From NCBI GenBank assembly GCA_964035545.1, contig OZ037769.1, positions 17,303,633 through 17,367,632 on the forward strand: a DNA stretch of 64,000 nt. Reading direction: 5' to 3'. This DNA comes from Bugula neritina (taxonomy: Eukaryota; Bryozoa; Gymnolaemata; Cheilostomatida; Bugulidae). The notes under the pieces are model-generated. The model was given only the letters and a program-made list of their open reading frames with translations, did no database searches and was not told where the DNA came from. Shown one piece after another: positions 2,564 to 43,759 of the stretch. Within the stretch, counting starts at the first letter, position 1, and each line of letters begins with the position of its first letter. The translations under genes were made by a program, and so were the position numbers.

Positions 2564-5500
2564 ATGGGTCAACGTAAATCTGTCCCTCAACCTCCACGTC
2601 AGTCTGTGATAAGTTAGTAAACCATATGAATACAAATACTGCAACTAGTGACTATAACAGAAATTATATAATTTTATGTTCTGAAAATAAGGTGCAGTAG
2701 CAGAGAAACTGAGATAGCCTAAGTTCTTTAAGTTTTCTAACAAATTTTGAGTTAAGGTGCAGGTAAAAATTATCATCAAAACATAACTTCTTTGCTACAT
2801 TTCTGACCTAGAAACACAGGTATTTTTCACTTGTTTCATTATGGTACACCTACCTCTGTTTTGACCACAGCTGAGTATATTACATTGCTTGTGTTTATTA
2901 TATAATGTTATATACTGAGTATAATATATATATAGCTATTATATACTGACTTATATTATACTATTCTATAACTATTAGACTAACCTATGTCATATTATAT
3001 TATATAGTATATTATATTAAATTATATTATAGCCTACTATATGACCAATTATAATATATCATAACGCATGCTGCGTACAATACCAAAGTTAATTACTTCA
3101 ATACTGTATAGAGTGTTGAGACATATACTCTGTTATTTGATATCAATGTTATTATTCATATAGTGGTGAATATTTTGTAGAAAGGTACAAGGTGTGGTTC
3201 AACATATCCAGTATAGATGGAGCTGATTATAAGTGGATGAAGAATGATACTACACACTACACTATAGAAGAGATCAAGAAGAGAACTAGACATCATACAG
3301 TGACTCATGTTACACTGGAGGATGACATCCCTCCAAATATGAACACACTGTTTCCTCATCTCACACACCTGAGTGTAGAAGGAGTAAATAGTAGTGCTGA
3401 CTGGACCAGGTATACTAGTGTTATAATATAAAACTATATATTCAATAAGTGACATATTATCTTGTAGTAGAATGTGGAGTAATCTCCCCTCACAATAACA
3501 CTACCTTTAGTAACAACTGTTGTATTATTTACCTGGTTTATTGTATTTCTATTTATTATTCAATGTAATGTGAGTGAATCTCATTCAAACTAATATGTGA
3601 TAATTATATAGAGTTGAATACTGTCACATACCTGTGTGTTATGTTACAGCATATCTTCGCTGAAGAATCTTGAGGTATTGGATATATCAGATAATTACCT
3701 ATCTGAAGGTCAACCTGACAATATATTCACATCCTTACTATCATTGAGAGAGTTGAACATGAGGAACTGTGGACTACCAACTCTACCAAACAGGTGTGTA
3801 TTATATTATAGTGTAGAATGGTACTGCAATAATCATAAGTTATAAATATACTATAAATAGGTAGGAGTTGTATAGTATTTTTTGATATACAATATTTCAC
3901 ACCTGCATAATATGCTACAGCATATCTTCACTGAAGAATCTTGAGGTATTGGATATATCGTGGAGTAAGCTATCTGAAGGTCTACCTGACAATATATTCA
4001 CATCCTTACTATCATTGAGAAAGTTGAACATGAGTTACTGTAACCTACCAACTCTACCAAACAGGTGTGTATTATATTATATTGTATAATGGTACTGCAA
4101 TAAGCATAAGTTATAAATATATTATAGATATGATTAGGTAGAGGTTGTATGGTATTTTTAATATACAGCATTTCACACCTGTATGTTATGTTACAGCATA
4201 TCTTCACTGAAGAATCTTGAGGTATTGGATATATCAGATAATAACCTATATGAAGGTCTACCTGACAATATATTCACATCCTTACTATCATTGAGAGAGT
4301 TGGACATGAGTTACTGTAACCTACCAACTCTACCAAACAGGTGTGTATTATATTATATTGTATAATGGTACTGCAATAAGCATAAGTTATAAATATATTA
4401 TAGATATGATTAGGTAGAGGTTGTATGGTATTTTTAATATACAGCATTTCACACCTGTATGTTATGTTACAGCATATCTTCACTGAAGAATCTTGAGGTA
4501 TTGGATATATCAGATAATAACCTATATGAAGGTCTACCTGACAATTTATTCACATCCTTACTATCATTGAGAGAGTTGAACATGAGGGACTGTAAACTAC
4601 CAACTCTACCAAACAGGTGTGTATTATATTATAGTGTAGAATGGTACTGTAATAAGTATAAATTATAAATATAATATAGATATGATTAGGTAGAAGTGTA
4701 TGGTATTTTTTGATATACAACATTTTACACCTGTGTGTTATGTTACAGCATATCTTCACTGAAGAATCTTGAGGTATTGTATATATCAGTGAATAACCTA
4801 TCTGAAGGTCTACCTGACAATATATTCACATCCTTACTATCATTGAGAGAGTTGAACATGAGTCACTGTGAACTACCAACTCTACCAAACAGGTGTGTAT
4901 TAAATTATAGTGTAGAATGGTACTGCAATAATCATAAGTTATAAATATACTATAAATAGGTAGGAGTTGTATAGTATTTTTTGATATACAATATTTCACA
5001 CCTGCGTAATATGCTACAGCATATCTTCACTGAAGAATCTTGAGGTATTGTATATATCATGGAATAAGCTATCTGAAGGTCTACCTGACAATATATTCAC
5101 ATCCTTACTATCATTGAGAGAGTTGTACATGAGTTGGTGTAAACTACCAACTCTACCAAACAGGTGTGTATTATATTATACATTATGAAGTTGTCTGCAC
5201 TATCTTTATTGAGTCAACTAGACTCTGTGTATACGACACGTCATAAGACAACTACTCTATTCAATCAGATATACTCAGATAGATATGGTATGACAACTTC
5301 TCACTTATTACTCTAATAAATTTATTGACAAATAAATTGTTTTGCTACAAAATGAAAGTATATTGAGACTTAGCTGAGAGTTGTATATTGTAACTTGTAT
5401 AATTTTTAAGGAAGTTAATGAATAGAAGACAACTAACAAAATATTCATTTTTAGCTGTACTTAATTATGAAACTCTCACTGATTTATTATACTGAGATAT

Positions 5501-8500
5501 ATTATAATGTTATACTGAGATATAATAGTATACTATACTGAGATATATTATAATACTATACTGAGATATATTATAATATTATACTGAGATATATTATATT
5601 ACTATACTGAGATATATTATAATACTATACTGAGATATATTATAATATTATACTGAGATATATTATAATATTATACTGAGATATATTATAATATTATACT
5701 GAGATATATTATAATGCTATACTGAGATATATTATAATATTATACTGAGATATATTACAATATTATACTGAGAAATATTATAATACTATACTGAGATATA
5801 TATAATGTTATACTGAGATATATTGTAATGTTATACTAAGATATATTACAATATTATACTGAGATATATTATAATACTATACTGAGATATAATATAATGT
5901 TATACTGAGATATAATATAATACTATACTGAGATATATTATAATGTTATACTGAGATATATTGTAATGTTATACTAAGATATATTACAATATTATACTGA
6001 GATATATTATAATACTATACTGAGATATATTATAGTGTTATACTGAGATATATTATAATATTATACTGAGATATAATATAATATTATACTGAGATATATT
6101 ATAATATTATACTGAGATATATTATAATATTATACTGAGATATATTATAATATTATACTGAGATATATTATAATATTATACTGAGATATATTATAATGTT
6201 ATACTGAGATATATTATAATATTATACTGAGATATATTATAATGTTATACTGAGATATATTATAATACTATACTGAGTTATATTATAATGTTATGCTGAG
6301 ATATTATATAATTTATCTGTATGATATAATATATGTTAAAGCATATCTTCACTGAAGAATCTTGAGGTATTGGATATATCAATGAATAACCTATCTGAAG
6401 GTCTACCTGAAAATATATTCACATCCTTACTATCATTGAGAAGGTTGAACATGGCGGGCTGTGAACTACCAACTCTACCAAACAGGTGTGTATTATATTA
6501 TACATTACGAAGTTGTCTGCACTATCTTTATTGAGTCAACTAGACTCTGTGTATACGACACGTCATAATAAGACAACTACTCTATTCTATCAGATATACT
6601 CAGATAGAAATGGTATGACAACTTCTCGCATATTATTCTAAAAAATTCATTGACAATTAAATTGTTTTGCTACAAAATGAACTCTATTGAGACTTATCTG
6701 AGAGTTGTATATTGTAACGTGTAATTTTTAGAGAAGCTAATGAATATCGAAGACAACTAACAAAATATTCATTTTTAATTATGAAACTCTCACAGATTTA
6801 TTATACTGAGATATATTATAATATTATACTGAGATATATTATAATATTATACTGCGACATATATTATAATATTATACTGAGATATATTATAATATTATAC
6901 TGAGATATATTATAATATTATACTGAGATATATTATAATATTATACTGAGATATATTATAATGTTATACTGAGATATATTACAATGTTATACTGAGATAT
7001 ATTATAATGTTATACTGAGATATATTATAATATTATACTGAGATATATTATAATATTATACTGCGACATATATTATAATATTATACTGAGATATATTATA
7101 ATATTATACTGAGATATATTATAATACTATACTGAGATATATTATAATACTATACTGAGATATATTATAATGTTATACTGAGATATATTATAATATTATA
7201 CTGAGATATATTATAATATTATACTGAGATATAATATAATATTCTACTGAGATATATTATAATATTATACTGAGATATATTATAATGCTATACTGAGATA
7301 TATTATAATATTATACTGAGATATATTACAATATTATACTGAGAAATATTATAATACTATACTGAGATATATATAATGTTATACTGAGATATATTGTAAT
7401 GTTATACTAAGATATATTACAATATTATACTGAGATATATTATAATACTATACTGAGATATAATATAATGTTATACTGAGATATAATATAATACTATACT
7501 GAGATATATTATAATGTTATACTGAGATATATTGTAATGTTATACTAAGATATATTACAATATTATACTGAGATATATTATAATACTATACTGAGATATA
7601 TTATAGTGTTATACTGAGATATATTATAATATTATACTGAGATATAATATAATATTATACTGAGATATATTATAATATTATACTGAGATATATTATAATA
7701 TTATACTGAGATATATTATAATATTATACTGAGATATATTATAGTGTTATACTGAAATATATTATAATATTATACTGAGATATAATATAATATTATACTG
7801 AGATATATTATAATATTATACTGAGATATATTATAATATTATACTGAGATATATTATAATATTATACTGAGATATATTATAATATTATACTGAGATATAT
7901 TATAATGTTATACTGAGATATATTATAATATTATACTGAGATATATTATAATGTTATACTGAGATATATTATAATACTATACTGAGATATATTATAATGT
8001 TATACTGAGATATAATATAATATTATACTGAGATATATTATAATGTTATACTGAGATATATTATAATACTATACTGAGTTATATTATAATGTTATGCTGA
8101 GATATTATATAATTTATCTGTATGATATAATATATGTTATAGCATATCTTCACTGAAGAATCTTGAGGTATTGAATATATCATATAATAACCTATCTGAA
8201 GGTCTACCTGAAAATATATTCACATCCTTACTATCATTGAGAAGGTTGAACATGGCGGGCTGTGAACTACCAACTCTACCAAACAGGTGTGTATTATATT
8301 ATACATTACGAAGTTGTCTGCACTATCTTTATTGAGTCAACTAGACTCTGTGTATACGACACGTCATAATAAGACAACTACTCTATTCTATCAGATGTAC
8401 TCAGATAGAAATGGTATGACAACTTCTCGCATATTATTCTAAAAAATTCATTGACAATTAAATTGTTTTGCTACAAAATGAACTCTATTGAGACTTATCT

Positions 8501-11500
8501 GAGAGTTGTATATTGTAACGTGTAATTTTTAGAGAAGCTAATGAATATCGAAGACAACTAACAAAATATTCATTTTTAATTATGAAACTCTCACAGATTT
8601 ATTATACTGAGATATATTATAATATTATACTGAGATATATTATAATATTATACTGCGACATATATTATAATATTATACTGAGATATATTATAATATTATA
8701 CTGAGATATATTATAATATTATACTGAGATATATTATAATATTATACTGAGATATATTATAATGTTATACTGAGATATATTACAATGTTATACTGAGATA
8801 TATTATAATATTATACTGAGATATATTATAATACTATACTGAGATATATTATAATACTATACTGAGATATATTATAATGTTATACTGAGATATATTATAA
8901 TATTATACTGAGATATATTATAATATTATACTGAGATATAATATAATATTATACTGAGATATATTATAATATTATACTGAGATATATTATAATGCTATAC
9001 TGAGATATATTATAATATTATACTGAGATATATTACAATATTATACTGAGAAATATTATAATACTATACTGAGATATATATAATGTTATACTGAGATATA
9101 TTGTAATGTTATACTAAGATATATTACAATATTATACTGAGATATATTATAATACTATACTGAGATATAATATAATGTTATACTGAGATATAATATAATA
9201 CTATACTGAGATATATTATAATGTTATACTGAGATATATTGTAATGTTATACTAAGATATATTACAATATTATACTGAGATATATTATAATACTATACTG
9301 AGATATATTATAGTGTTATACTGAGATATATTATAATATTATACTGAGATATAATATAATATTATACTGAGATATATTATAATATTATACTGAGATATAT
9401 TATAATATTATACTGAGATATATTATAATATTATACTGAGATATATTATAGTGTTATACTGAGATATATTATAATATTATACTGAGATATAATATAATAT
9501 TATACTGAGATATATTATAATATTATACTGAGATATATTATAATATTATACTGAGATATATTATAATATTATACTGAGATATATTATAATATTATACTGA
9601 GATATATTATAATGTTATACTGAGATATATTATAATATTATACTGAGATATATTATAATGTTATACTGAGATATATTATAATACTATACTGAGATATATT
9701 ATAATGTTATACTGAGATATAATATAATATTATACTGAGATATATTATAATGTTATACTGAGATATATTATAATACTATACTGAGTTATATTATAATGTT
9801 ATGCTGAGATATTATATAATTTATCTGTATGATATAATATATGTTATAGCATATCTTCACTGAAGAATCTTGAGGTATTGAATATATCATATAATAACCT
9901 ATCTGAAGGTCTACCTGACAATATATTCACATCCTTACTATCATTGAGAGAGTTGTACATGGAGAGATGTAAACTACCAACTCTACCAAACAGGTGTGTA
10001 TTATATTATACATTATGAAGTTGTCTGCACTATCTTTATTGAGTCAACTAGACTCTGTGTATACGACAAGTCATAATACAACTACTCTATTCTATCAGAT
10101 ATACTCAGATAGAAATGGTATGACAACTTCTCACTTATTGCTCTAATAAATTTATTGATAATTAGATTGTTTTGCTACGAAATGAAATCTATTGAGACTT
10201 AGCTGAGAGTTGTATATTGTAACGTGTAATTTTTAGAGAAGTTGATGAATAGAAGACAACTAACAAAATTATCATTTTCAGCTGTAATTGTGAAATTCTT
10301 ACTGATTGTTACACTGAGTTATAATATAGAAATTATACTGAGATATATTATAATATTTACTGAGATATATTATAATATTATACTGAGATATAATGTAATG
10401 TTATACTGAGATATATTATAATGTTATACTGAGATATATTATAATATTATACTGAGATATATTATAATATTATACTGAGATATATTATAATATTATACTG
10501 AGATATAATATAATACTATACTGAGATATAATGGTAGTCAATCAACTGTTACCTAGTGATGCATTGTATCATTTACCTGCTCTTTTGCATCAAATAACTG
10601 GGAGGATAACTCCTAAAATATCTATAAATTTTATACAATACTTTGCACAATCTTACATATATGTATTATAATTATTAATTGTATTATGGAACTCCAATGT
10701 TTATTTTTGTGCAAACCCCATTTTTGTAACCTCAAATATATTATTTTATTTTTATTAGCATGCAGAGTCTACAGAAGTTAGAGAAACTGAACATATCAAG
10801 GAACAAGTCCACCAGTTTACCATCTATTGTGTACACACTGAGCAGTCTGCAAGAACTGAATATATGTAATAATAAATCCCTGACATCATTAGATCCTGAG
10901 ATACTACAGCTAACTCAACTTCATACACTGGAGGTCTGGGGTTGTGATGCTCTCACATCTCCTCCACTAGAAGTATGTAAGAGAGGACTAGATGCTCTGA
11001 GACAATACTACACAGACTTGGCTAAAGGTGCTGGTAAAAGTCTACCATTTGCTACTGTAGCTGTGCTGGGTAATACGATGGCCGGGAAGACCAGTCTAAT
11101 CAGAACATTACAGAGTGCTGACAGAAAGAGAGTTCTGACCAACAGAGGGCCAGATGCTGTGAGAGATGAGACAACAAAGGTGTTTAATGTTGAAGAGGTG
11201 GAGGTGGATGGTACAGTACTCCGTGTCATTGATATGGGAGGCCAGGAGGTCTACCATATCACCTATCAACTGACACTGAGACAGAACTGTATTCCAGTCA
11301 TAGTAGTCAACATGGAGCAGTATGATAAGATTTCAAGTGAATCAACCCACAGAGAAGCTGTTAGAAGATTAGCCTTTGATTACATGTCCCACCTCTACCT
11401 GGCTAACCCAACTCTGGGTCCACCAAAACTTATCTTCACCCATGAAGATAAGTTTCAACGTACGGAATTTCAGAAGCTTCGAAAAACCTTTCTAGAAACT

Positions 11501-14500
11501 TCCAATCAACTGTGTGAGGAGATGATTAGAGAAGAGAAAGCGTTGGGTGGAGAATTTGCTCGAATCAAATATTTCAGTGAATCAACTGATGGCGTCTTTC
11601 TTGGTGAGGACATTTTTGAGCTGGGAAAGGATGACAAGTATGAAGTGTTTGACCTGATCAAAGAGTCTCTTCTTCAAAGCAGTCAAAATTTTGTGAAACC
11701 TTTACCTCTGGTCTGGGAGGAAGTGAATGAAAAAGTTCTGTCTATTCCCTCTGTGTACAGCACCTTTGATGAGACACTGAAATACATACAAACAGAACTT
11801 CAACACATTGAGTCAAGTCAGCTGGACATAATCCTCACATACATGCATGACTGCGGCAAAGTCTTGTGGTATAAAGATATCAGCTCTCTCCGGCCATACG
11901 TATTCCACAAGATTTCAGAAGTCACCAAACTCCTCTGTGTCTTGTATCATCATGATCCTAAGATCTGGCAGAGTAGAGTTGACCAGTTCCAGCCATACTA
12001 TTCGCAGACTGAACTACGTGTCGAAAAGCAGGACTTTGAGAAATCCGTCAATGATTTCACTGACACTGGTTTGATGATGCCGTCCCTTCTTTTTTATTTC
12101 GTTGAAAAAGAGACATCATTCAGTAGCTCTAAGGACGTTGAAGTTGCCGTCTGCTTACTCCAGACGTTTCGTTTGCTGCACGGTCCAATACATAGCGAGT
12201 CTGAAGAGCCATGGTTCATTGTACCTCAGTTTGCTAAAAACTACTACAGCACCTCCTATTCCTCACCCAAAGACATACGTCTTCAGGTGGAGACACAGTT
12301 CAATGGTCTAGCCCTGCCACAATATGTCTACCACCAGATGACGGTCGGTTTGTTGGAATCGTTCCCAGATGAGTTTGCTGTGATGGAAGTGAAGAGAAAC
12401 GGAGCCAATGTCTATCAAGATGAAATCCACACACAGCTGGTACATGATTGCAAATCTAGAAAAGTGTCACTTCACGTGTCATCCAATGCTGCCAACATCA
12501 GCAAAGTGTGGGAGAGACTCATCACCACCAACAACAACATCCTTAGACATGTTCTAGAAACCTGGACAGCAAGTAGAGCAGTCACTACATGCTACTGTGC
12601 TCACTGCCTTCTGCTAGGACTTCCTTGTCCTAAGAAAGTACTCCATCCTCCATGGTGTCTTCGCTCCTTGAAACATCCCACACCAAATCCCAGACTGTGT
12701 AGTGGATCTTCAACAACTCTGTGTGGCAGTGAGGAGATACCGAGTGCTTTTCTCTATCCATGTATGTTTGGTTACATTATGGTGCAGTGTGTGTAATAAC
12801 TTTTATTTCTTTCTAATTTACCACATTATTTAGATATGAACTGAGTCAATCCTCCCCATTCCTTGGTATAATTGGGGTAAGAAAAATATAGTGAGTTGGA
12901 ATTATTTATTATATTTTTAAGTATTTCAACTTTTCAGGTGAAACATTGTCTAAGAAAGAAGCTGATAAGTTGGAGAAGTTTGGGAAGGAACTGAATCTTC
13001 GAGGAGCTCAAAGAAGAGTAACTAATTCTGGTAAACACGGAGTTACCAGTTTGTGCAAGCGTGTGTTCTTTTTATGTTAATCAAGTTCAACTTGAGCCGT
13101 GAATGATTCTACTGCGTTTTATTTCATACCATGTCAACAGTTTCTTAGGAATGTGTATCATTTAAAAATTGAACTTTATTTTGCAAGTTAATGAAAGCGT
13201 TTAACTTTACATGGTGAAGCAATGAACGTATATTACTGAGTTACAGCTCAGTACTACTTTGCCGATCTTTGTATTTCTTACTTATTCTGTGATGTGATAT
13301 GAGTCTGTACTTTATAGCTGCTAACAGTAGCCAATCAGATCTCCTGACCTCCGCGATAACAGCCAATGACGATCTCAGTGATCTCTCTGATGACGATGAG
13401 AATCTGTACCCTGATAGAGAGGAAGTTGAAAATATGAAGTTTATAAGACTCAGACTGAATCCCACCAGTAACCCAAAGATAAGACAGCTGTTCTCAAACA
13501 CTGACAAGGTGATCACTTCTAATGGCTATGTCCTTTATTCTTGCCAGTTGTTTAGTTCAGCAGTGACACGTATTTCTCTGTTACATTCAGGTGTTTACTA
13601 TGACTAGAAAAAGAGGAAGAGCTCTGATAATAAACAACATGAACTTTGAGAAGAGACCAGATTTGTGTAGGACAGGTTCAGATGTGGATGTAGAGAATTT
13701 GTCTGCCCTGTTGAAAACTCTCAAGTTTGATGTTGTGACACACGCAGACCTGAAAGCTGAGGTACGTTTTGTTGCTGTTTACTTATCAAGTTAAAAACCT
13801 ACTTCTCTGTTAGTATACAATATCTATATTTATACAGAATACGTTGCAAGGGTTTACAGGTCTTACAGTTTTCATGGACTTTAAATAAAAATTCAATTTA
13901 ACATAAGACTTCCTCCTTCCCAATTTCATTATTTTACTTCCTGTTGTAGGAGATGCTGTCTGCTGTGAAATCTGAGGTGAAAAAAGAGGAACACGAAGAT
14001 CTGGGATGTCATGTGTTGGTTATCATGACTCATGGAGGGCTGAACAACCACATCTTGGGTACAGACCTGAAACGAGTCAAATTAACAGATGTGTATGACC
14101 TTCTGACCCCTTTGAACTTCCCTGGAATGGCTGGCAAACCAAAGGTTGTTATACTGGAAGTCTGTAGTGGAGGTAATCAATTTATAAAACATTTCTGGTC
14201 AGTGCAGAGTTGTGTTCTCTTGAATGTTAAGTATTTGGTAGAGTGTGTTAACTTACAACTAATTTCACAATTATGTAGAATAATTCTTACATATTTAACC
14301 TTGTTTGTGTTCATTATATGAAGTGAATATAAATGTTTTTATATCGCTCACAGAGAGAAGTGACTATGGCCAAAGAGGTATAGACAGATTTGATATCGGA
14401 GAATCACAGAAGGAGGGGGAGAGTATCTCACCTCCACTTGCTAAAGTTCCAGGAGACAAAAATGCTGAGGCTATGAATAGACTGAACTATGATGACCTGC

Positions 14501-15675
14501 TAGTAGTGAAATCTAGCATGGAGTGTAAGTAAGACACATGTAATGGAGTACAAGTTACTGTATCCATGATATTATACTGTATAACTAGTCAACTAGTTGT
14601 ATTTCCAATAGTTGAATATTTTATATGATTGATTCTACTTGTAGCATTCATATCAAAAAGTCACCCTGAGTGTGGATCTCTAATGGTTAGAGCTCTTGTA
14701 TCCTCCATGTATAAACATGCCTGTCACCATGACCTCTACACTATATTCAAACAGGTTAATGTGTTGCACTTTGTTACACTTATAAACATAGAGATCTGAT
14801 GAAATTGAAAATGTCACAAATTAATGTTAGCTGTTGGCAAACTAATAATATTAGGAGTAAATATTTATAATTATTTTACAGTTTGTTATAGAGTATTTAC
14901 AGTTTCCTTTTGTTATAGTGTAGGTATTGTTATAGTGTAGGTATTGTTATAGTGAAGGTATTGTTATAGTGTAGGTATTGTTATAGTGAAGGTATTGTTA
15001 TAGTGAAGGTATTGTTATAGTGAAGGTATTGTTATAGTGTAGGTATTGTTATAGTGTAGGTATTGTTATAGTGTAGGTATTGTTATAGTGTAGGTATTGT
15101 TATAGTGAAGGTATTGTTATAGAGAAGGTATTGTTATAGTGTAGGTATTGTTATAGTGTAGGTATTGTTATAGTGTAGGTATTGTTATAGTGTAGGTATT
15201 GTTATAGTGTAGATATTGTTATAGTGTAGGTATTGTTATAGTGTAGGTATTGTTACAGTTAGTGTAGGTATTGTTATAGTGAAAGTATTGTTACAGTGTA
15301 GGTATTGTTATAGTGTAGGTATTGTTATAGTGAAGGTATTGTTATAGTGAAGGTATTGTTACAGTGTAGGTATTGTTATAGTGTAGGTATTGTTATAGTC
15401 TAGGTATTGTTATAGTGTAGGTATTGTTATAGTGTAGGTATTGTTATAGTGTAGGTATTGGTTATTTAGAATAATATGGTATAAAATAGCAATAAGATTT
15501 CACTGTTTACTTGCTTAACATTCTTCAGGTACAGACTAAAGTGAGAAAACTGTGTTTAGATAAAAATCTAGAGAGTGGAGGACAGTTGGTTGTAGTCTGG
15601 GATACTCTCACTCATATGAGAAAACTTTACCTGTTTCCTGGGTTTAATGGCAACCAAAGAGAAGATGACTCTTAG
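2564..15675 (+). CDS. LRR-Roc-COR-caspase fusion protein, copy A (about 1560 aa)
   Basis: Nineteen coding exons whose phases all agree: 2564-2612, 3181-3409, nine LRR cassettes (3650-3793, 3921-4064, 4197-4340, 4473-4616, 4749-4892, 5020-5163, 6342-6485, 8143-8286, 9850-9993), 10759-12761, 12938-13030, 13318-13508, 13591-13761, 13950-14172, 14354-14524, 14645-14754 and 15529-15675. They sum to 4683 nt. The protein starts MGQRKS, an N-myristoylation-type motif. LRRs reach about residue 585. The Roc GTPase has P-loop GNTMAGKTSL near 629, DMGGQE and THED. A COR domain and Cys-rich tail follow, then an acidic linker, and a caspase p20/p10 domain from about 1290. The catalytic pair is MTHGG (His about 1372) and EVCSG (Cys about 1416). 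The family roles are LRR recognition, GTPase switching and Cys-protease effector; the combined role is inferred. The ATG of the MG motif is chosen because its donor phase matches exon 2 in both copies. No frameshift or stop was seen. Confidence 0.88.
3650..5163 (+). repeat. Six tandem LRR exon cassettes (271-276 bp period)
   Basis: Six 144-nt exons start at 3650, 3921, 4197, 4473, 4749 and 5020. Each encodes 48 residues, that is two LRRs, and begins and ends in the same phase (AG|C, a serine across the junction). Any number of cassettes can therefore be gained or lost without breaking the frame. The conserved core is SLKNLEVL, LSEGLPDN and LPTLPN. The introns between are about 127-132 bp, and the two at 4065-4196 and 4341-4472 are identical by eye. 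Variable residues cluster around the IS and M..C positions of each LRR. Confidence 0.9.
5480..6310. repeat. 23-bp minisatellite in LRR intron 6
   Basis: Tandem copies of a 23-bp unit with core actgagatatattataat fill the intron between LRR exons 6 and 7. Variants include gatataatata and ttacaatat. The array is extremely AT-rich, and no ORF of interest lies in it. Confidence 0.95.
6800..8110. repeat. 23-bp minisatellite in LRR intron 7
   Basis: The same 23-bp family as at 5480-6310, in a longer array with internal higher-order structure. Groups of variant units, such as those around gagaaatatta and actaagatatatt, recur in the same order in the neighbouring arrays. This shows that blocks of several units were duplicated together. 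Confidence 0.95.
8605..9810. repeat. 23-bp minisatellite in LRR intron 8
   Basis: This is a near copy of the array at 6800-8110, with the same order of variant units and a few units missing. It supports duplication of the whole exon-plus-array block. Confidence 0.95.
10300..10535. repeat. Short 23-bp minisatellite before the Roc exon (copy A)
   Basis: About ten degenerate copies of the 23-bp unit lie in the intron between the last LRR cassette and the large LRR-Roc-COR exon. A matching short array lies at 30050-30295 in copy B. Confidence 0.9.
10759..12761 (+). other. Large exon: last LRRs, Roc GTPase and COR domain (copy A)
   Basis: A 2003-nt exon, the same length in both copies. It encodes two final LRRs, the Roc switch domain (GNTMAGKTSL, then DETTK, DMGGQE and FTHED) and the COR region, with a typical MHDCGKVLWY stretch. 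It ends in a Cys-rich segment (CYCAHCLLLGLPCP), possibly a metal site. The donor is gtatgt at 12762. Reading on past the donor gives a short tail and a stop, so intron retention would yield a protein without caspase. Confidence 0.85.
13591..15675 (+). other. Caspase p20/p10 exons (copy A)
   Basis: Five exons encode the protease. The p20 part has RGRALIINN, then CRTGSDVDVENL, VLVIMTHGG and ILEVCSGERSDYG, which align with the family landmarks for the S1-pocket Arg, the catalytic His and the QACxG pentapeptide. A linker of about 50 residues follows. The p10 part has SFISKSHPECGSLMVRAL and ends TLTHMRKLYLFPG, the usual caspase C-terminal strand. The dyad is present. The pentapeptide is EVCSG, and the usual SWR of p10 reads SKS. 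Confidence 0.85.
14915..15465. repeat. 17-bp minisatellite in last intron of caspase gene A
   Basis: About 32 copies of a 17-bp unit (gttatagtgtaggtatt, with a gtgaagg variant) lie in the intron before the final exon. Copy B has about ten copies at 34633-34802. Confidence 0.95.
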
Positions 15676-19971: not shown

Positions 19972-20903
19972 ATGGAGACTGAAGATGCTGGAACGCAACC
20001 ACAGCCGGTAGAAGGTGAGCGTAGAGATGATGTTATTCCTGTGAATCGTGTTGTAGAAGAGCGAAGAGTTCCTCGGGAACTGAACGAAGACCTCTGCCGG
20101 TTAAAGGCACCCACCTTCACTGGCGAAGGCGAAGTGGAACAATTCATTCAAGAGTTTAGCGACGTGATGGACGTTGCCCAGTAGCCACCTAGGGTGGCCC
20201 TGCTGAAGCTCAGAATGTCATTGATGGATAAGGCCAAGCCCTATGGGTTAGGGGCAGACATCGATAGTATCTTTGCTTCTCCACGAGCCCGCTTCGGCAT
20301 CTCTGCCATAGATGCCCGGGCTTGTCTACAAAGGCTGCGGCGTGATCCCACACCCCGCTACAGGAACATGCCACCACGATGATGAAGCTGGCGCAGATTG
20401 CGTATAGCGATCTGCCTCAAGCTAACCGTGAGAGGTGCACCTTTGACGCCTTTGTGCAATCTGTCAACGACTTGGGACTCCACCATCAATTTCTAGCTAG
20501 GGGAGTTACCACAGTCGAAGACGCTCTGGCGGAAGGAGAAGCTTATCTTCTGGCAAACCAGATGCATAGAAATCGCGGGAACTCCCACCAGGTGGAGATA
20601 GAGCCCACGGACACGGCAGCCGATCGGGAGGCAGAGCCCTCCGCGACCGCTGTCGTGGGACAGTTAACTGCCGCATCGAAGGTCGCCCAACTGACTGACA
20701 TGTTGGCTAAACTGGTAGCAGCACTGACACATCAAACCCCAGTAGGTACCGTCTATGAGCCTCCGCAGCCACCGGGGGAAACAGTCAGTTTTTGCTGGGA
20801 ATGTGGAAACCAAGGACATTTCCGCAGATACTGGCCTCTCCTTGCTCCGGGGTTAAACTACCGTGGCCCGCAGATGTTCCCGCCTCCTGCGGGCCGACGA
20901 TGA
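19972..20903 (+). pseudogene. Gypsy gag-like region, broken
   Basis: It starts at ATG 19972, which is 34 bp after the 5' LTR. The early part has a TAG at 20182 and ends at 20382. The downstream part continues in another frame from about 20379 to 20903. A CCHC zinc knuckle is recognisable near the end (CWECGNQGHFRRY), but the last Cys position is Tyr. The family role is RNA packaging in the particle. With a stop, a frame change and a damaged knuckle, this copy should not make working Gag. Confidence 0.8.
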
Positions 20904-21159
20904 ATCCCCCAGGGAAGAGGAAACGTAGGTCACTCAGACGGGTACTGCGTGCTAACAACCAGAAGGGGCGACAGCCACGGCAAACAGGTAAGGGGCTCCG
21001 CCCCGCTGTTACCTTCTCTATGCCACTCCACAACCGATTCAACGGGCCCAAGAATCAGAAAGGGAACCAATACAGGCAACTGGAAACTTACCCTCCCTAT
21101 CTCCGAGGACACCCTACCACCGTCCCAAACGACCACCCTCGCGACCTAAAGCGAGGGAG

Positions 21160-24100: not shown

Positions 24101-25118
24101 ATGCGTCAGCTCCGACAGTGGCCAGGGTGCTAGACCAACATGTATTCTGTCACTTTGGCCTCTTCGAACAGATACACTTTGACCAAGGCGTCCAGTTCCA
24201 GTCTCAACTGATGAGCGACCTTTGTCGCCTCTGGGGAGTAAATCAGAGCAGGACCACTCCTTACCATCCCCAAGGCAACGAGGTGGTGGAGCGCAATAAC
24301 CGGATGCTAAGTGATGCGCTCCGGAGTCTACTCCTCGGACACAGTCAGGAGGAATGGGACACGGTGTTGCAGCAAGTCATGCGCGCATACCGTAGCACCC
24401 CACACACCAGTACTGGTGAGACCCCAAACCTCCTGATGCTCGGGAGGGAGACTCGTGTCCCAGACCATCTTACCTACCACATTCCAGAACAAGACAACTC
24501 AGTTCACGAGTATGCCAGTGAACTAGTGGAACGGATGAAGGTCGCACACGAAATGCTGCGAGAGAAGCAGTGGCAGGTGCGGCGCGAAGATTCCGAGAAA
24601 CCACCTCTCTATCAGACAGGAGATTGGGTGTGGATGGTCAATTACCGTAGGCATTGCGGACAGGCGGCTAAGTTACAGCCTAAGTTCGTGGGACCCTACG
24701 TGATAGTCGAGGCTATGCCCAACCATACCTACAAGATCGAGCGCTCAGGACAAGTGTCCATCCCAAATGAGGCTCGCTTGAAGCCGTATTGGGCTAGCCC
24801 AGACGCAGTGAGAGAAGCCCCCCCCCATTGTTGGAACCCAGGAGGCAGACGACAATGCGTGGGCGACGGCGGCATGGATCCGAGTATGAAGTGGTCATTC
24901 CGCAGGAAGAAGATTTGGTACGAGACGAGCGACCGCTTCTACCCACAGAAGTGCGTCCGCCGCCTCCTATACCAAGTCTGATGCCATCACTTCCAGAAAC
25001 CGAACCGGTTCCGAAAGTGCAAACCCTCACGGAGGGAGGGGCTCCATCCAGAGAACAGGAAAAAGTAACCACTACCGGTGAATTAGAAGCGCCACCAGAG
25101 GCCCCTACTAGCCGGTGA
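21160..25118 (+). pseudogene. Gypsy pol: protease, RT, RNase H, integrase, interrupted
   Basis: One frame runs from about 21160 to 24981 with in-frame stops at 21427, 22156, 22417 and 23077. The protease active site reads LLDLGCT, where D-S/T-G is usual. RT (about 22160-22800) has VDYRKLN and the catalytic YLDDV. RNase H (about 22980-23350) begins DTDAS and is cut by the stop at 23077. Integrase (about 23640-24500) has an H/H-C/C zinc region, then VDLVGP, FDQG and NEVVERNN carrying the D, D and E residues, followed by a GPY/F module (KFVGPY). After a run of eight C at about 24820, a proline-rich tail continues in another frame to 25118. This copy is not functional. Confidence 0.9.
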
Positions 25119-27358: not shown

Positions 27359-30300
27359 ATGGGTCAACTCATTTCTGTCCTCAGACGCAAACCAAGTAAG
27401 TAAATCATATAAATATAAATACCACTTAACTAGTGACTACAGAACTTGTATATTCTACTTGTATGTGTGTTGACTTTTGAGGTGCAGTAGTGGAGAAAAT
27501 GAGCTAGCATAAGTTCCTTTATTTTCTTAGCAAATTTGAGGATGGGTGCTGGTTGAAATTCAGAACATAACTTCTTTTGCTCTTTCCTGATTTGGAAACA
27601 CAGGCTTTCTCACTTTTATGCGTTATATATTACCTCTGTTTTCATCACAGCTGAGTATTATGTTGCTTGTCCTCACCTATATCCTCACCTATCTCCGCTC
27701 TTTCCTGTTCAGGTAGCGGGTTGCTGCCGGAGGCCTAGCTCAATTCGGCTGCTCAACCTAACCCTGTCCCGAGCATCCTCTTCATTGACGGAGCACGATT
27801 GGAGATTTTTTCTGATTGTATTCTGCCATCCATGCTTTGGGCGTCCCCGGTCTCTCTTTCCTCGAATTCTCAACTCATGCACTCTTCTGATATCATCCTT
27901 TTAATTTCTCTCTTTTGCATAATATAAGTCCAAACCACTGCAACTTTCTTCTCATCAATTCTAACACATTCATTACTTTCACTTTTTACCTTATGCTCTT
28001 GTTTAGTTTTTTTAAGACTTTCTTGTAGCATAGCACCGCGGTCAGCTCTCTACATTTATCCCAGGCTCTGCCAATTCGCACTTATACGTCTGTCCTGCAT
28101 CTTCCTGGTGGATTGTAGTTCCCAGATCATCTGCAAACAGCAAGCTCTATGGTGTGTCTTCAACATTGTCATCCGAGATAACATCCATTATAATTATAAA
28201 AAGGAAAGGGCTTAGGGCTGAGCCCTGGTGTAGTCCAACTTCCAGTCTTATTTCTCCTGTCTCTCCCGCATTTGTTACTACTATTGCTGTTGAGTCCTTG
28301 TACATATCCTTGATGATACTGATGTAAGCTTTGAGTACATAGTATTTCCTTAAACAACCTTGCTTGTGTTTATTACATAATGTTGTATATTAACTTATAT
28401 TATACTACACTATAGCTGTTAGATACTGACCTATATTATACTATACTAATATTAATATACTTATATTATAATATACTATAACTATTAAGCTAACCTATAT
28501 CGTACTCTATTTATATGTATTATATTATATTACGTTATACTATATACAATCAATTGTAATATTATATTACAACGCAGAGAATTATAAAAACATGGCCGCA
28601 CCTTTTTACCTGTCATCTGCTGTAGTTGAAGTCTGCACCAGCTACAAGGTTGAGTCATACTGTTAGGTTATAGTCTGACAACTTAGTGGGTATACATTCA
28701 GATTATGTCACAGGATTTGGTTTGGAGTTATAAAATCTCAAAGTTTACTTCAATACTGTTTATAGTGTGGAGACATATATTCTGTTATTTGATATCAATG
28801 TTATTATTCATATAGTGGTGAATATTTTGTAGAGAAGTACAAGGTGTGGTTCAACACATCCAGTATAGATGGAGCTTATGATGAGTGGATGGAGAGAATG
28901 ACTACATCCTACACTATAGAAAAGATCAAGAAGAGAACTAGACATCATACAGTGACTCATGTTAGACTGGAGGATGATATTCCTCCAAATATGAACACAC
29001 TGTTTCCTCATCTCACACATCTGAGGGTATCTAGAGTACACAGAAATGCTGACTGGACCAGGTATACTAGTGTCATAACATAAAGCTATATTCAATAAGT
29101 GACATATTATCTAATTGTAGTAGAATGTGGAGTAATCTCCCCTCACAATAACACTACCTTTAGTAACAACTGTTGTATTGTTTGCCTGGGTTATTATATT
29201 TCTATTTATTATTCAATTCAGTTTAATGGTAATGAATCTCATTCAAACTAATATGTGATTTAAATTATATTATAGAGTACGTTGAATACTGCAATACCTG
29301 TGTGTTATGTTACAGTATATGTTCACTGAAGAATCTTGAGGTATTGAATATATCATATAATAACCTATCTGAAGGTTTACCTGACAATATATTCACATCC
29401 TTACTATCATTGAGAGAGTTGAATATGAGGGCCTGTAAACTTCCAACTCTACCAAACAGGTGTGTATTATATTATAGTGTAGAATGGTACTGTAATAAGT
29501 ATAAGTTATAAATATATTATAGATATGATTAGGTAGGAGTGTATGGTATTTTTAATATAAAACATTTCACACCTGTGTGCTATGTTACAGCATATCTTCA
29601 CTGAAGAATCTTGAAGTATTGCATATATATGGGATTAACCTATCGGAAGGTCAACTTGACACTATATTCACATCCTTACTATCATTGAGAGAGTTGGACA
29701 TGTGGAACTGTAAACTACCAACTCTACCAAACAGGTGTGTGTTATATTATACATTATGAAGTTGTCTGCACTATCTTTATTGAGTCAACTAGACTCTGTG
29801 TATACGACACGTCATAAGACAACTATTCTATTCTATCAGATGTACTCAGATAGAAATGGTACCACAACTTCTCACTTATTACTCTAATAAATTCATTGAT
29901 AATTAAATTGTTTTGTTACAAAATGAACTCTATTGAGACTTACCTGAGAGTTGTATATTGTAAGGTATAGAATTTTTAGAGAACGTAATGAATAGAAGAG
30001 AACTAACAAAATAATCATTTTCAGCCGTAATTATGAAACTCTCATAGATTTAGATACTGAGATATAATATAATATTATACTGAGATATATTATAATATAT
30101 TATACTGAGATATATTATAATGTTAAATACTGATATATATTATAATACTATACTGAGATAGATATATAATATTATAATGTTATACTGAGATATATTATAA
30201 TATTATACTGAGATATATTATAATATTATACTGAGATATATTATAATATTATACTGAGATATATTATAATATTATATACTGAGATATAATATGGCAGTCA

Positions 30301-33300
30301 ATCAACTGTTACCTAGTGATGCATTGTATCATTTACCTACTCTTTTGTATCAAATAACTGGGAGTAGAACTCCTAACAGCTAGAAAATATTATTGTTTTT
30401 ATACTATGCATTGCACAATCTTATATATTTATTATAATTATGAATTGTATTATGGAACTCCAATGTTTATTTTTGTGCAAACCCCATATTTGAAACATCA
30501 AATATATTTTATATTTATTAGCATGCAGAGTCTACAGAAGTTAGAGAAACTGAACATATCAGATCACAACTTCACCAGTTTACCATCTCCTGTGTACTCA
30601 CTGAGTAGTCTGCAGGAACTGGATATCTCTCGTAATTACTCCCTGACATCCTTAGATTCTGAGATACTACAGCTAACTCAGCTTCATACACTGCATGTTG
30701 AAAGATGTGATGCTCTCGCATCTCCTCCACTAGAAGTATGTGAGAGAGGAGTAGATGCTGTGAGACAATATTACACAGACTTAGCTAAAGGTGCTGGTAG
30801 AAGTCTACCATTTGCTACTATAGCTGTGCTGGGTAATACGATGGCCGGAAAGACCAGTCTAATCAGAACATTACAGAATGCTGACAGAAAGAGAGTTCTG
30901 ACCAACAGAGGTCCAGATGCTGTGAGAGATGAGACAACAAAGGTGTTTAATGTTGAAGAGGTGGAGGTGGATGGTACAGTACTCCGTGTCATTGATATGG
31001 GAGGCCAGGAGGTCTACCATATCACCTATCAACTGACACTGAGACAGAATTGCATCCCAGTCATAGTAGTCAACATGGAGCAGTATGATAAGATTTCAAA
31101 TAAATCAACACACAGAGAAGCTGCTAGAAGATTAGCATTTGATTACATGTCTCACCTCTATCTGGCTAACCCAACTCTTGGTCCACCAAAACTTATCTTC
31201 ACCCATAAAGATAAGTTTCAAAGTACAGAGTTTCAGAAGCTTAAAGAAAACTTTCTAGAAACTTCAAATCGACTGTGTGAGGAGATGATTAAGGAAGAGA
31301 AAGCATTGGGTGGAGAATTTGCTCGAATCAAACATTTCAGTGAAGCAACTGATGGAGTCTTTCTTGGTGAGGACATTTATGAGCTGGGAAAGGATGATAA
31401 GTATGAAGTGTTTGACCTGATCAAGAAGTCTCTTCTTCGAAGCAGTCAACATTTTGTAAAACCTTTACCTCTTATCTGGGAGAAAGTGAATGAAAAAGTG
31501 CTGTCTATTCCCTCTGTGTACAGCACCTTTGATGAGACACTAAAGTACGTACAAACAGAACTTCAACACATTGAGTCAAGTCAGCTGGACATAATCCTCA
31601 CATACATGCATGACTGCGGCAAAGTCTTGTGGTATAAAGATATCAGCTGTCTCAGGCCATACCTATTCCACAAGATTTCAGAAGTCACCAAACTCCTCTG
31701 TGTCTTGTATCATCATGATCCTAAGATCTGGCAGAGTAGAGTTGACCAGTTCGAGCCATACTATTCACAGACTGAAGTACGTGTCGAGAAGCAAGACTTT
31801 GAGAAATCTGTCAATAATTTCACTGACACTTGTTTGATGATGCAGTCACTTCTTTTTTATTTCATTGAAAATGAGACATCATTCAGTAGCTCCAAGGATG
31901 TAGAAGTTGCCGTCTGCTTACTCCAGACGTTTCGTTTGCTGCACGGTCCAATACATGGCGAGTCTGAAGAGCCGTGGTTCATTGTACCTCAGTTTGCTAA
32001 AAACTACTACAGCACCTCCTACTCCTCACCCAAAGACATGCGTCTTCAAGTGGAGACACAGTTCAATGGTCTAGCCCTGCCACAATATGTCTACCACCAG
32101 ATGACGGTCGGTTTGTTGGAATCGTTCCCAGATGAGTTTGCTGTGATGGAAGTGAAGAGAAACGGAGCCAATGTCTATCAAGATGGAATCTACACACAGC
32201 TGGTACATGATTACAAATCTAGAAAAGTGTCACTCCACGTGTCATCCAATGCTGCCAACATCAGCAGAATGTGGGAGAGACTCATCACGACCAACAACAA
32301 CATCCTTAGACATGTTCTAGAAACCTGGACAGCAAGTAGAGCAGTCACTACATGCTACTGTGCTCACTGCCTTTTGCTAGGACTTCCTTGTCCTAAGAAA
32401 GTACTCCATCCTCCGTGGTGTCTTCGCTCCTTGAAACATCCCACACCAAGTCCCAGACTGTGTGGTGGATCTTCAACAACTCTGTGTGGTGATGAGGAGA
32501 TACTGAGTGCTCTTCTCTATCCATGTATGTTTGGTTACATTATGGTGCAGTGCGTGTAATAGCTTTTATTTCACTCTAATTTACCACATAATTTAGAATT
32601 GAATTGAGTTAATCCTCCCCATTCCTTGGTATAATTGGGGTTAGAAAAATATAGTGAGTTGGAATTATTTATTATATTTTCAAGTATTTCAAAATTTTAG
32701 GTAAAACACTGTCCGAGAAAGAAGCTGATAAGTTTGAGAAGTTTGTGAAGGAACTGAATCTTCGAGGAGCTCAAGGAAAATTAGCTAATTCTGGTAAATA
32801 CCAAGTTAGCAGCTTGTGCAAGCGTGTGTTTTTTAAATGTTAATTAATTTCAACTTGAGCGATGAATTATTCTACTGCATTTTATTTCATACCATGTCAA
32901 CAGTTTTTTTAGGAATGTGTATAATTTAAAAATTTAACTTTATTTTGCAAATTAATGAAAGCATTTAGTTTTATATAGTGAAGCAATGAAAGCATATTAC
33001 TGAATTACAGCTGAGTACTAATTTGCCAATCTTTGTATTTCTTATTTATTCCATGATGTGATATGAATTTGTACTTTATAGTTGCCAACAGTAGCCAATC
33101 AGATCTCCCGACCTCCACAATAACAGCCAATGATGATCTCAGTGATCTCTCTGATGATGATGAGAATCTGTACCCTGATAGAAAGGAAGTTGAAAATATG
33201 AAGTTTATAAGACTCAGACTGAATCCCACCAGTAACCCAAAGATAAGACAGCTGTTCTCAAACACTGACAAGGTGATCACTTCTAATGTCTATGTCCTTT

Positions 33301-35016
33301 CTTCTTGCTGGTTGTTTAGTTCAGCAGTGACACGTATTTCTCTGTTACATCCAGGTGTTTACTATGACTAGAAAAAGAGGAAGAGCTCTGATAATAAACA
33401 ACATAAACTTTGAGAAGAGACCAGATTTGTGTAGGAAAGGTTCAGATGTGGATGTAGAGAATTTGTCCACCATGTTGAAATATCTCAAGTTTGATGTTGT
33501 GACACACACAGATCTGAAGGCTGAGGTATTTCTTGTTGCTGTTTACTTATCAAGTTAAAAACTTACTCCTCTGTTAGTTTACAAACTCTACATATGTATA
33601 CAGAATACGATTTAAGGGTTTACAGTTCTTACAGTTTTCATGAATTTCAAAAAGATGTTCAATTTAACATAGGACTTCCGCCATCCCAATTTCATTATTT
33701 TACTTCCTGTTGTAGAAGATGCTGTCTGCTGTAAAATCTGAGGTGAAAAAAGAGGAACACGAAGATCTGGGATGTCATGTGTTGGTTATCATGACTCATG
33801 GAGGGCTGAACAACCACATCTATGGTACAGACCTGAAACGAGTGAAACTAACAGATGTGTATGACCTTCTGACCCCTTTGAACTTCCCTGGAATGGCTGG
33901 CAAACCAAAGGTTGTTATACTGGAAGTCTGTAGTGGAGGTAATGAATTTATAAAACATTTGTGGTCACTGCAGAGTTGTGTTCTCTTGACTGTTGAGTAA
34001 TTCTTACATGTTTGACACTGTTTATGTTCATTATATGAAGTAAATATAAATGTTTTTATATCTCTCACAGAGAGGAGTGATTATGGCCAAAGAGGTATAG
34101 ACAGATTTGATATCGGAGAATCACAGAAGGAGGGGGAGAGTATCTCACCTTCACTTGCTAAAGTTCCAGGAGACAAAAATGCTGAGGCTATGAATAGACT
34201 GAACTATGATGACCTGCTAGTAGTGAAATCTAGCATGGAGTGTAAGTAAGACACATGTAATGGAGTACAAGTTACTGGATCCATGGTATTATTCTGTATA
34301 ACTAGTCAACTAGTTGTATTTCCAATAGTTGAATAATTTATATGATTGATTCTACTTGTAGCATTCATATCAAAAAGTCACCCTGAGTATGGATCTCTAA
34401 TGGTTAGAGCTCTTGTATCTTCCATGTATAAACATGCCTGTCACCATGACCTCTACACTATATTCAAACAGGTTAATGTATTGCACTTTGTTACACTTAT
34501 AAGCATAGAGAACTGATGAAATTGAAAATGGCGCAAAATAATATTAGCTGTTGGCCAACTTGAATAATTTTAGGAGTAAATATTTATAATTATTTTACAG
34601 TTTGTTGTAGAGTATTCACAGTTTACTTGTGTTATAGTGTAGGTATTTTTATGGTGTAGGTACTGTTATAGTGTAGGTATTGTTATAGTGTAGGTATTGT
34701 TATAGTGAAGGTATTGTTATAGTGTAGGTATTGTTATAGTGTAGGTAATGTTATAGTGTAGGTATTGTTACAGTGTAGGTATTGTTATAGTGTAGGTATT
34801 GGCTATTTAGAATAATATGGTATGGAATAGTAATAAGATTTCACTGTTTATTTGCTTAACATTCTTCAGGTACAGACTAAAGTGAGAAAACTGTGTTTAG
34901 ATAAAAATCTAGAGAGTGGAGGACAGCTGGTTGTAGTCTGGGATACTCTCACTCATATGAGAAAACTTTACCTGTTTCCTGGGTTTAATGGCTACTCAAG
35001 AGAAGATGACTCTTAG
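27359..35016 (+). CDS. LRR-Roc-COR-caspase fusion protein, copy B (about 1220 aa)
   Basis: Twelve coding exons, all in phase: 27359-27395, 28833-29061, 29316-29459, 29591-29734, 30522-32524, 32701-32793, 33082-33272, 33355-33525, 33716-33938, 34071-34241, 34362-34471 and 34870-35016. They sum to 3663 nt. Apart from the first exon and the LRR number, every exon has the same length as in copy A. The start MGQLISVLRRKP is again an N-myristoylation-type motif, here followed by basic residues. There are two LRR cassettes instead of nine. Roc motifs are GNTMAGKTSL, DMGGQE and THKDKF. Caspase residues are MTHGG (His about 1032) and EVCSG (Cys about 1076). The frame is intact throughout, so both paralogues look functional. 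The gene's 5' region is separated from its putative first exon by the Gypsy element. Confidence 0.88.
27671..28359 (-). mobile_element. Antisense LINE reverse-transcriptase fragment
   Basis: The minus strand encodes broken pieces of a non-LTR RT: LLFADDL near 28130 (the catalytic FADD box), SALSPFLF near 28220, and a GRP motif near 27850. The plus strand in copy A is uninterrupted at this point (about 2890). In copy B the insert is bounded by ttgcttgt at 27663-27670 and 28360-28367, an 8-bp target duplication. It lies in intron 1 of caspase gene B, in antisense orientation, and has several frame breaks. Confidence 0.85.
29316..29734 (+). repeat. Two LRR exon cassettes (copy B)
   Basis: Exons 29316-29459 and 29591-29734, each 144 nt and in the same AG|C-type phase as in copy A. 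Variable residues read NISYNN and LNMRACK in the first, and HIYGIN and LDMWNCK in the second. The intron after the second contains the same gactctgtgtatacgacac block as in copy A, so B keeps the ends of the array but lacks its expanded middle. Confidence 0.88.
30050..30295. repeat. 23-bp minisatellite before the Roc exon (copy B)
   Basis: About ten degenerate copies of the same 23-bp unit that fills the LRR introns of copy A. Confidence 0.9.
34633..34802. repeat. 17-bp minisatellite in last intron of caspase gene B
   Basis: About ten copies of gttatagtgtaggtatt; copy A has about three times as many. Confidence 0.9.
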
Positions 35017-43742: not shown

Positions 43743-43759
43743 ATTACTATGAGTATTAG

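Follow-up and report, generated by a model that had tools for sequence, protein, structure and literature searches.

Gene organization at the locus

We analysed a 64,000-nucleotide stretch of the Bugula neritina genome (the window, C5:17303633-17367632; the genome census below covers the same assembly, of 215.8 Mb in 295 contigs), in which positions 2564-15675 hold a gene, here termed copy A, predicted to join leucine-rich repeats (LRRs), a Roc GTPase, a COR domain and a caspase in one polypeptide; a shorter relative, copy B, lies downstream. Splicing of the genomic sequence joined 19 exons into an uninterrupted frame of 1567 residues, with GT-AG ends at all 18 introns and matching phases at every join. 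An earlier reading of this DNA, made from its letters alone (the sequence-only reading), had described 19 exons with matching phases, and this description is upheld. At the level of genomic sequence, the predicted LRR-Roc-COR-caspase gene is thus confirmed as real. Its domains are arranged as a short first exon, an N-terminal exon, nine LRR exons of 144 nucleotides, a 2003-nucleotide exon encoding the last LRRs, Roc, COR and a Cys-rich region, two linker exons and five caspase exons, as follows.

2564..2616, + strand: exon 1, with start codon (MGQRKS...); spliced model, with a similar stretch upstream of copy B
3164..3409, + strand: exon 2, N-terminal stretch preceding the LRRs; spliced model, copy B exon 79% identical
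3650..3793, + strand: LRR exon 1, 144 nucleotides, phase 2-2, two LRRs; spliced model
3921..4064, + strand: LRR exon 2; spliced model
4197..4340, + strand: LRR exon 3; spliced model
4473..4616, + strand: LRR exon 4; spliced model
4749..4892, + strand: LRR exon 5; spliced model
5020..5163, + strand: LRR exon 6; spliced model
6342..6485, + strand: LRR exon 7; spliced model
8143..8286, + strand: LRR exon 8; spliced model
9850..9993, + strand: LRR exon 9; spliced model
10759..12761, + strand: last LRRs, Roc GTPase, COR and C-terminal Cys-rich region in a single 2003-nucleotide exon (the Roc-COR exon); Pfam, fold, at least 65 genome matches including itself
12938..13030, + strand: linker exon x13; found in 9 of 30 loci
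13318..13508, + strand: linker exon x14, with an acidic SDLSDDD stretch; found in 20 of 30 loci, 15 of these more than 60% identical, and collinear in Watersipora subatra
13591..13761, + strand: first caspase p20 exon (p20a), carrying the p20 S1 Arg; at least 92 genome matches
13950..14172, + strand: second caspase p20 exon (p20b), catalytic His in MTHGG and Cys in EVCSG; at least 132 genome matches
14354..14524, + strand: inter-subunit linker exon; spliced model
14645..14754, + strand: first caspase p10 exon, Ser at the expected S1 Arg; alignment to CED-3 and other loci
15529..15675, + strand: last caspase p10 exon and stop; spliced model

The N-termini of copy A (2564-2581), copy B (near 27.36 kb) and the gene models P0001 and P0052 of the bryozoan W. 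subatra read MGQRKS, MGQLIS, MGCSLS and MGAKSS. All fit MGxxxS/T, which we take to be an N-myristoylation motif, and by this prediction the encoded receptors may be membrane-bound.

A predicted Roco-type switch without adaptor domains

Searches of the spliced copy A protein against Pfam identified LRR_14 (185 bits), Roc (29.1 bits, cut-off 27) and Peptidase_C14 (125.4 bits, cut-off 21.4), and the G-motifs quoted for the Roc GTPase in the sequence-only reading (GNTMAGKTSL, DMGGQE and THED) are all present in the translation. The hidden Markov model search that had been proposed as a check, using Roc, COR and Peptidase_C14, was therefore borne out for the first and last of these. It failed for COR, since COR-A scored below its cut-off of 35.3 both in the whole protein (13.8 bits) and in the exon alone (15.5 bits), a point that counts against the reading proposed here; across the genome 12 of 23 COR-A matches exceeded the cut-off, counting two in short frames. 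The predicted COR domain stands instead by fold. An AlphaFold2 model of the Roc-COR exon, built with 36 sequences, reached a mean predicted local distance difference test score (pLDDT) of 86.9 and a predicted template modelling score of 0.85, and Foldseek matched it to structures of LRRK1, Chlorobium tepidum Roco and LRRK2 with a best E value of 2.7e-23, those for LRRK1, C. tepidum Roco and 3dpu ranging from 2.7e-23 to 4.6e-17. By this fold, COR directly follows Roc in copy A, as expected of a Roco protein.

At an E value of 0.1, Pfam assigned copy A neither a CARD, DED or death domain nor a NACHT or NB-ARC STAND ATPase, leaving Roc as the predicted nucleotide switch. Together with the domain order and with exon joins defined by phase and homology, this bears out the proposal of a one-chain LRR-Roc-COR-caspase protein lacking the usual adaptor domains, and we regard the single-chain architecture, as predicted from sequence, as well supported. 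Beyond COR, at the end of the same exon, C613, H615, C616 and C655 are invariant among 36 aligned sequences and another Cys is kept in at least 90%; these residues could form a zinc site.

A family of fused genes across the genome

Searches with the Roc-COR exon yielded at least 65 genome matches, including copy A itself, at 63-100% identity; this and the other census counts are lower bounds, as only the best candidates were scored (for p20b, 139 candidates scored and 132 matches listed). Merging these 65 within 3 kb with the non-overlapping members of 39 long-frame Roc rows (of 150) and 21 of 23 COR-A rows (the other two, in short frames, being left out) gave 89 loci. In 85 of these, including 62 of the 65 exon matches, a p20 exon lies on the same strand within 10 kb downstream (median about 2.2 kb), compared to none with a downstream p20 on the opposite strand and a single locus with a same-strand p20 upstream. 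Of the four exceptions, three show a p20 on the same strand at 10.8-15.6 kb, and the fourth (C6:15229289) has a same-strand Peptidase_C14 match about 2 kb downstream. Most Roc-COR exons (57 of 65) are stop-free over the matched stretch; the other eight carry one or two stops, which in three of them (L027, L044 and L052) fall outside the exon core.

Closer examination of 30 of the 65 exon loci revealed a GT donor at the same codon after the Roc-COR exon in all 30, and an AG acceptor at the expected place in 27, one of the remaining three reading N and two lacking it. Within flanks of 1500 bases, where absence of an exon is not evidence of its loss, p20a was found in 26 of the 30 loci, x14 in 20, p20b in 19 and x13 in nine. 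Identity to copy A was below 50% in five of the 20 x14 matches and in about a dozen p20 matches; for the caspase exons this reflects the existence of a second, diverged caspase type. Median pairwise Nei-Gojobori ratios of nonsynonymous to synonymous rates (dN/dS) were 0.247 for the Roc-COR exon (30 loci, no stops), 0.453 for x14 (15 loci), 0.229 for p20a (15 loci) and 0.275 for p20b (11 loci), with rows less than 60% identical to copy A excluded for the latter three. These values indicate selection on the reading frame, which is purifying in the p20 exons. Among copies whose Roc-COR is 80-84% identical to that of copy A, p20b is either 88-99% or 43-47% like the copy A exon, and Roc-COR and caspase exons have therefore probably been exchanged between copies.

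In copy B, exon lengths are the same as those of copy A, with GT/AG at the ends that were read, and there are two LRR exons versus nine.

28816..35016, + strand: copy B, with exon 2, two LRR exons, Roc-COR (30522-32524), x13, x14, p20 and p10; sequence comparison with copy A
near 27.36 kb, + strand: candidate exon 1 of copy B; likeness to exon 1 of copy A

Read-through or chance adjacency of Roc-COR and caspase exons was considered and rejected, given the census (85 of 89 versus none) and the conserved donor (30 of 30); the genome census and the homologues in another bryozoan indicate that the fusion is not fortuitous. Two observations count against the proposed reading in general: linker x13 was seen in a minority of the loci, and 47 of 132 p20-like matches have no Roc-COR exon found within 10 kb. 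A further alternative is that a Roco gene and an adjacent caspase gene were duplicated together and that the fusion is an artefact of exon joining. On this side, the joins in copy A were read from genomic sequence, phase and homology, and an ATG lies inside the exon starting at 13591. Against this, besides the invariant donor and the recurrence of linker x14 in two thirds of the loci, the copy A frame continues for about 11 codons beyond the Roc-COR exon and stops only within the intron, where an unspliced protein would therefore end, and NCBI gene models of W. subatra and of the amphioxus Branchiostoma belcheri join the parts. We consider two separate genes very improbable.

Relatives in other animals and origins of the fusion

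A protein search with residues 640-1567 of copy A returned five proteins, all NCBI models from W. subatra at 29-35% identity, four of which include a caspase. P0001-P0003 are collinear with copy A from the last LRRs through Roc, COR and an acidic linker to both caspase subunits, and P0004 ends before p10; one W. subatra model carries the label isoform X2. When long proteins carrying this caspase were searched for, 13 matches emerged: nine from W. subatra, two from B. belcheri and two others. Both amphioxus models combine Roco and caspase domains (P0059: LRR, Roc 54.5, COR-B 36.9 and C14 195 bits; P0060: Roc 54.1, COR-A 40.5 and C14 189 bits), and another of the 13 matches has precomputed ankyrin-type and C14 domains. 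P0061 (ena, 927 aa), with Roc, a CARD at 23.6 bits (below the cut-off of 23.9) and a partial caspase, is possibly a further Roco-caspase type. In addition, a profile search identified metagenome Roc-COR frames up to 83% identical (best 7995 candidates by shared words scored). A fusion unique to the Bugula genome is rejected, as the W. subatra and B. belcheri models also have it.

In Roc-COR phylogenies copy A groups with W. subatra P0042 (support 98/98 and 96/96 in two trees), which suggests that the family had duplicated before the two bryozoan species split; a single clade of W. subatra rows was not firmly rejected by the approximately unbiased (AU) test (p 0.051). Constraining all caspase-fused rows to one clade was rejected (AU p 0.003). 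B. belcheri P0059 is sister (100/99) to P0049, an LRR-Roc-COR model without caspase that carries precomputed PF00534 and PF13692, which we take to be glycosyltransferase domains. A single origin of all Roco-caspase fusions is thus rejected as a universal claim, on the strength of one caspase-less amphioxus row, P0049; because of this test, resting on that one row, it is probable that caspases joined Roco proteins on more than one occasion or that effectors were swapped. P0060 and P0061, whose tree positions are unreliable owing to long branches, were both excluded from the later Roc-COR tree and from the AU tests, and the caspase tree has many weak forks.

A structural model of W. subatra P0053 (pLDDT 70.8) forms one chain matching LRR-Roc-COR structures as well as caspase structures. 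Confidence in its linkers is low and contact between switch and caspase cannot be read from it, which tempers its value for the coupling of the two modules proposed below.

Conservation of the caspase domain

The caspase of copy A most closely matched CED-3 among PDB sequences (1.6e-22), followed by a reconstructed ancestral effector caspase-3/6/7 (5.7e-22) and caspase-9 (about 8e-21), and a profile of three caspase sequences ranked CED-3 first, then caspase-9, then caspase-3. A metacaspase or bacterial caspase-like protease was ruled out, as the best 60 of 181 PDB matches of copy A and the best 60 of 228 matches of the profile were all animal caspases or reconstructions of them. Catalytic His and Cys align with the CED-3 dyad, and by the same alignment copy A has the p20 S1 Arg. 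Across the family, 19 p20b translations from 18 loci were readable; the His is present in all 19 and the Cys in all 17 that reach that site.

The sequence-only reading had described a full p20/p10 caspase. Both subunits and the dyad are indeed present, and several features tell against an ordinary initiator protease in copy A. With an ancestral effector caspase nearly as close as CED-3, the label "initiator-like" is weak. The p10 S1 Arg is replaced by Ser in copies A and B, the pentapeptide QACxG reads EVCSG in copy A (QACSG in W. subatra P0001-P0004), and the copy A enzyme may accordingly be weak or altered in specificity. Among the eight p10 S1 sites read, the other six (L013, L015, L016, L055, L056 and L058) retain Arg; the search pattern had no match in L010, L011, L012, L014 or L057. 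Proteolysis by copy A is doubtful because of the Ser in copies A and B, and the caspases of the family as a whole look competent. Copy A therefore shares with CED-3 and caspase-9 a caspase domain and its dyad, and differs from them in having no CARD, in being fused to its putative activator and in the substitutions just described.

These substitutions could also mean that the caspase of copies A and B, perhaps with that of a close clade, is a pseudo-enzyme or an enzyme of altered specificity, binding other caspases to regulate them, or serving as the scaffold of a complex, rather than killing directly. cFLIP is a precedent for such a role. The retained dyad, purifying selection on the p20 exons and the p10 Arg kept in the six other loci argue the other way, and on balance we judge this explanation unlikely, though it is the most serious of those considered. 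Elsewhere in the genome, L009 (C4:5000994-5001812) is a one-frame caspase in which DASFG replaces QACxG, putting Ser at the Cys position, and a Trp follows the His; it looks catalytically dead.

Variation among LRR cassettes

Each of the nine LRR exons of copy A comprises 144 nucleotides encoding 48 residues and two LRRs, and all are in phase 2-2; owing to this symmetry, any number of them can be skipped or added in frame. Matches to the LRR exon in the genome number at least 150, comprising every candidate scored (the best 150 of 697). Within each exon, variation is concentrated at ten codons that, following the consensus LxxLxLxxNxL, we presume to lie on or beside the concave binding face; the ten positions follow the LRR consensus, yet were fixed after inspection of the copy A exons. 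Among the nine exons, the proportion of nonsynonymous differences (pN) was 0.351 at these codons versus 0.0149 at other codons. Similarly, mean entropy was 1.98 at binding-face positions versus 0.46 elsewhere (Mann-Whitney over positions, p 1.5e-6) among 23 full-length LRR exons from 15 of the 30 loci, three of them from the window. The variable LRR array of the sequence-only reading is thereby substantiated, with variation located mainly at the predicted binding face.

Introns flanking the LRR exons are 98-100% identical on both sides solely among the last three LRR exons of copy A, other pairs ranging from 35 to 100%. Long AT-rich tandem repeats, seen by eye, occupy copy A introns between LRR exons (5480-9830) and before the last exon (14920-15460), and are a possible substrate for unequal crossing-over that would alter the number of LRRs.

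Two considerations limit what this pattern implies about recognition. The proportion of synonymous differences (pS) is also raised at the binding-face codons (0.145 versus 0.0076), and because it is raised at the same codons, local hypermutation or conversion, which may have acted there, is indistinguishable here from selection. Furthermore, we infer both an LRR ligand and an immune role from the pattern of variation alone. A working one-chain receptor might serve another purpose, as a developmental or colony-level regulator of cell death, with a cause other than pathogens driving LRR variation. The basis on which the ligand was deduced leaves room for such a role, and the available part of PMC8195603 mentions that colonial animals, bryozoans among them, show allo-incompatibility. 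Against it, a set of dozens of copies with variable binding faces is typical of systems that recognize changing non-self; a non-immune role seems to us distinctly unlikely, somewhat more so than an impaired protease.

Comparison with known systems

Among the papers listed by a full-text search of open-licence PMC literature we found none describing a Roc-COR-caspase protein, and among those listed with bryozoan terms none on such receptors in bryozoans. The idea that the architecture was undescribed nevertheless holds only in part, given the W. subatra and B. belcheri models at NCBI and a 2008 report of amphioxus LRRs-caspase and TNFR-caspase hybrid genes, argued there to be shortcuts from recognition to apoptosis (Genome Biol 2008 R123, PMC2575513; for this and the papers below, statements refer to the available part of the text). 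Like B. belcheri P0059 and P0060, these LRRs-caspase genes resemble copy A in placing recognition or switch domains and a caspase in a single chain. They differ in that the available text names no Roc-COR, the words "Roc" and "GTPase" being absent from it; that they correspond to P0059 is something we infer. What is new here is the bryozoan family, together with its size, its explicit Roc-COR switch and its shufflable LRR exons; the underlying idea is not wholly new.

In the order LRR-Roc-COR and in fold, copy A resembles the Roco group that includes MFHAS1/MASL1, C. tepidum Roco and brown-algal ROCOs, from which it is set apart by a caspase after COR. A review recognizing three Roco groups by topology does not contain the word "caspase" in its available text (PMC6337361). 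In brown-algal ROCOs each LRR is a 72-bp phase-2 exon subject to shuffling and alternative splicing (PMC11378527); the phase-2 logic is common to both, with one LRR per 72-bp exon there versus two per 144-nucleotide exon in copy A. The same LRR-GTPase-COR platform with an effector also appears in sea-anemone genes combining LRR, GTPase, a low-threshold COR and TIR (PMC5094078) and in bacterial LRR-AP-GTPase-COR systems carrying GT4 effectors (PMC8195603), their effector being TIR or GT4 rather than a caspase. The glycosyltransferase of B. belcheri P0049 parallels the GT4 effector of the bacterial AP-GTPase systems (PMC8195603). The amphioxus comparison suggests that the LRR-Roc-COR platform acquired different effectors on more than one occasion, among them caspase and glycosyltransferase in the present data and TIR, GT4 and kinase in published systems (PMC5094078, PMC8195603, PMC6337361).

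A proposed mechanism

NLR inflammasomes and the Apaf-1/CED-4 apoptosome combine a sensor, a nucleotide switch and a caspase activated by proximity. We propose the same logic for copy A, differing in that the switch is a Roc GTPase rather than a STAND ATPase and that the model includes no adaptor or recruited caspase. The LRR array, built of interchangeable 48-residue cassettes with a variable concave face, would bind a foreign or danger ligand. Binding would alter the nucleotide (GTP or GDP) bound by Roc and the dimerization of Roc-COR through COR, as Roco biochemistry leads one to expect, and two C-terminal caspases might then be brought together on their flexible linkers and activated by proximity, like CED-3 or caspase-9. 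Once active, they would process themselves and set off cell death or inflammation, with no need of an adaptor bearing a CARD, DED or death domain. Replacement of the adaptor, and assembly resembling an inflammasome or apoptosome, would follow by analogy.

The observed domain order, the joins defined by phase and homology, the size of the family, the selection acting on the frame, the His/Cys dyad and the LRR variation pattern are best read as pointing to one-chain, GTPase-switched death receptors, probably with an immune role. That copy A belongs to a large family of predicted intracellular receptors, uniting a Roco sensor and switch with a caspase in one polypeptide and working by the proposed mechanism, we consider reasonably probable. 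More tentatively, bryozoans might maintain an anticipatory set of over 80 death receptors, each encoded by one gene and with its own switch and caspase; their face-diversified LRR cassettes could be recombined or alternatively spliced, and the receptors could trigger adaptor-free death and possibly take part in colony allorecognition.

If the proposed mechanism holds, copy A would represent a natural one-polypeptide counterpart of the inflammasome and apoptosome, its single chain uniting ligand binding with a GTP switch and a protease, and the coupling of Roc-COR state to an output enzyme would become directly measurable. For LRRK2 and the other Roco proteins, the way in which Roc-COR is coupled to output is a question of central importance. 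In Bryozoa, the family is in addition a candidate immune repertoire, paralleling the shuffled LRR exons of brown-algal ROCOs in the available text of PMC11378527.

Other features of the window and assembly

Searched against Rfam, the window showed no matches at the gathering score. A GC-rich stretch that lies between copies A and B holds frames named by eye as those of a Ty3/Gypsy-like element, and frames of a second element lie further downstream.

20346-24981, + strand: Ty3/Gypsy-like gag, reverse transcriptase and integrase frames, in several pieces
43753-44969, + strand: LINE-type reverse transcriptase, two frames (named by eye)

Elsewhere in the assembly, contigs C58 (L001), C90, C99, C210, C144 and C36 carry Rab-like GTPase matches whose in-frame stops are TAA and TAG only. 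L001 reads through under the ciliate code, and the assembly thus probably holds ciliate contigs.

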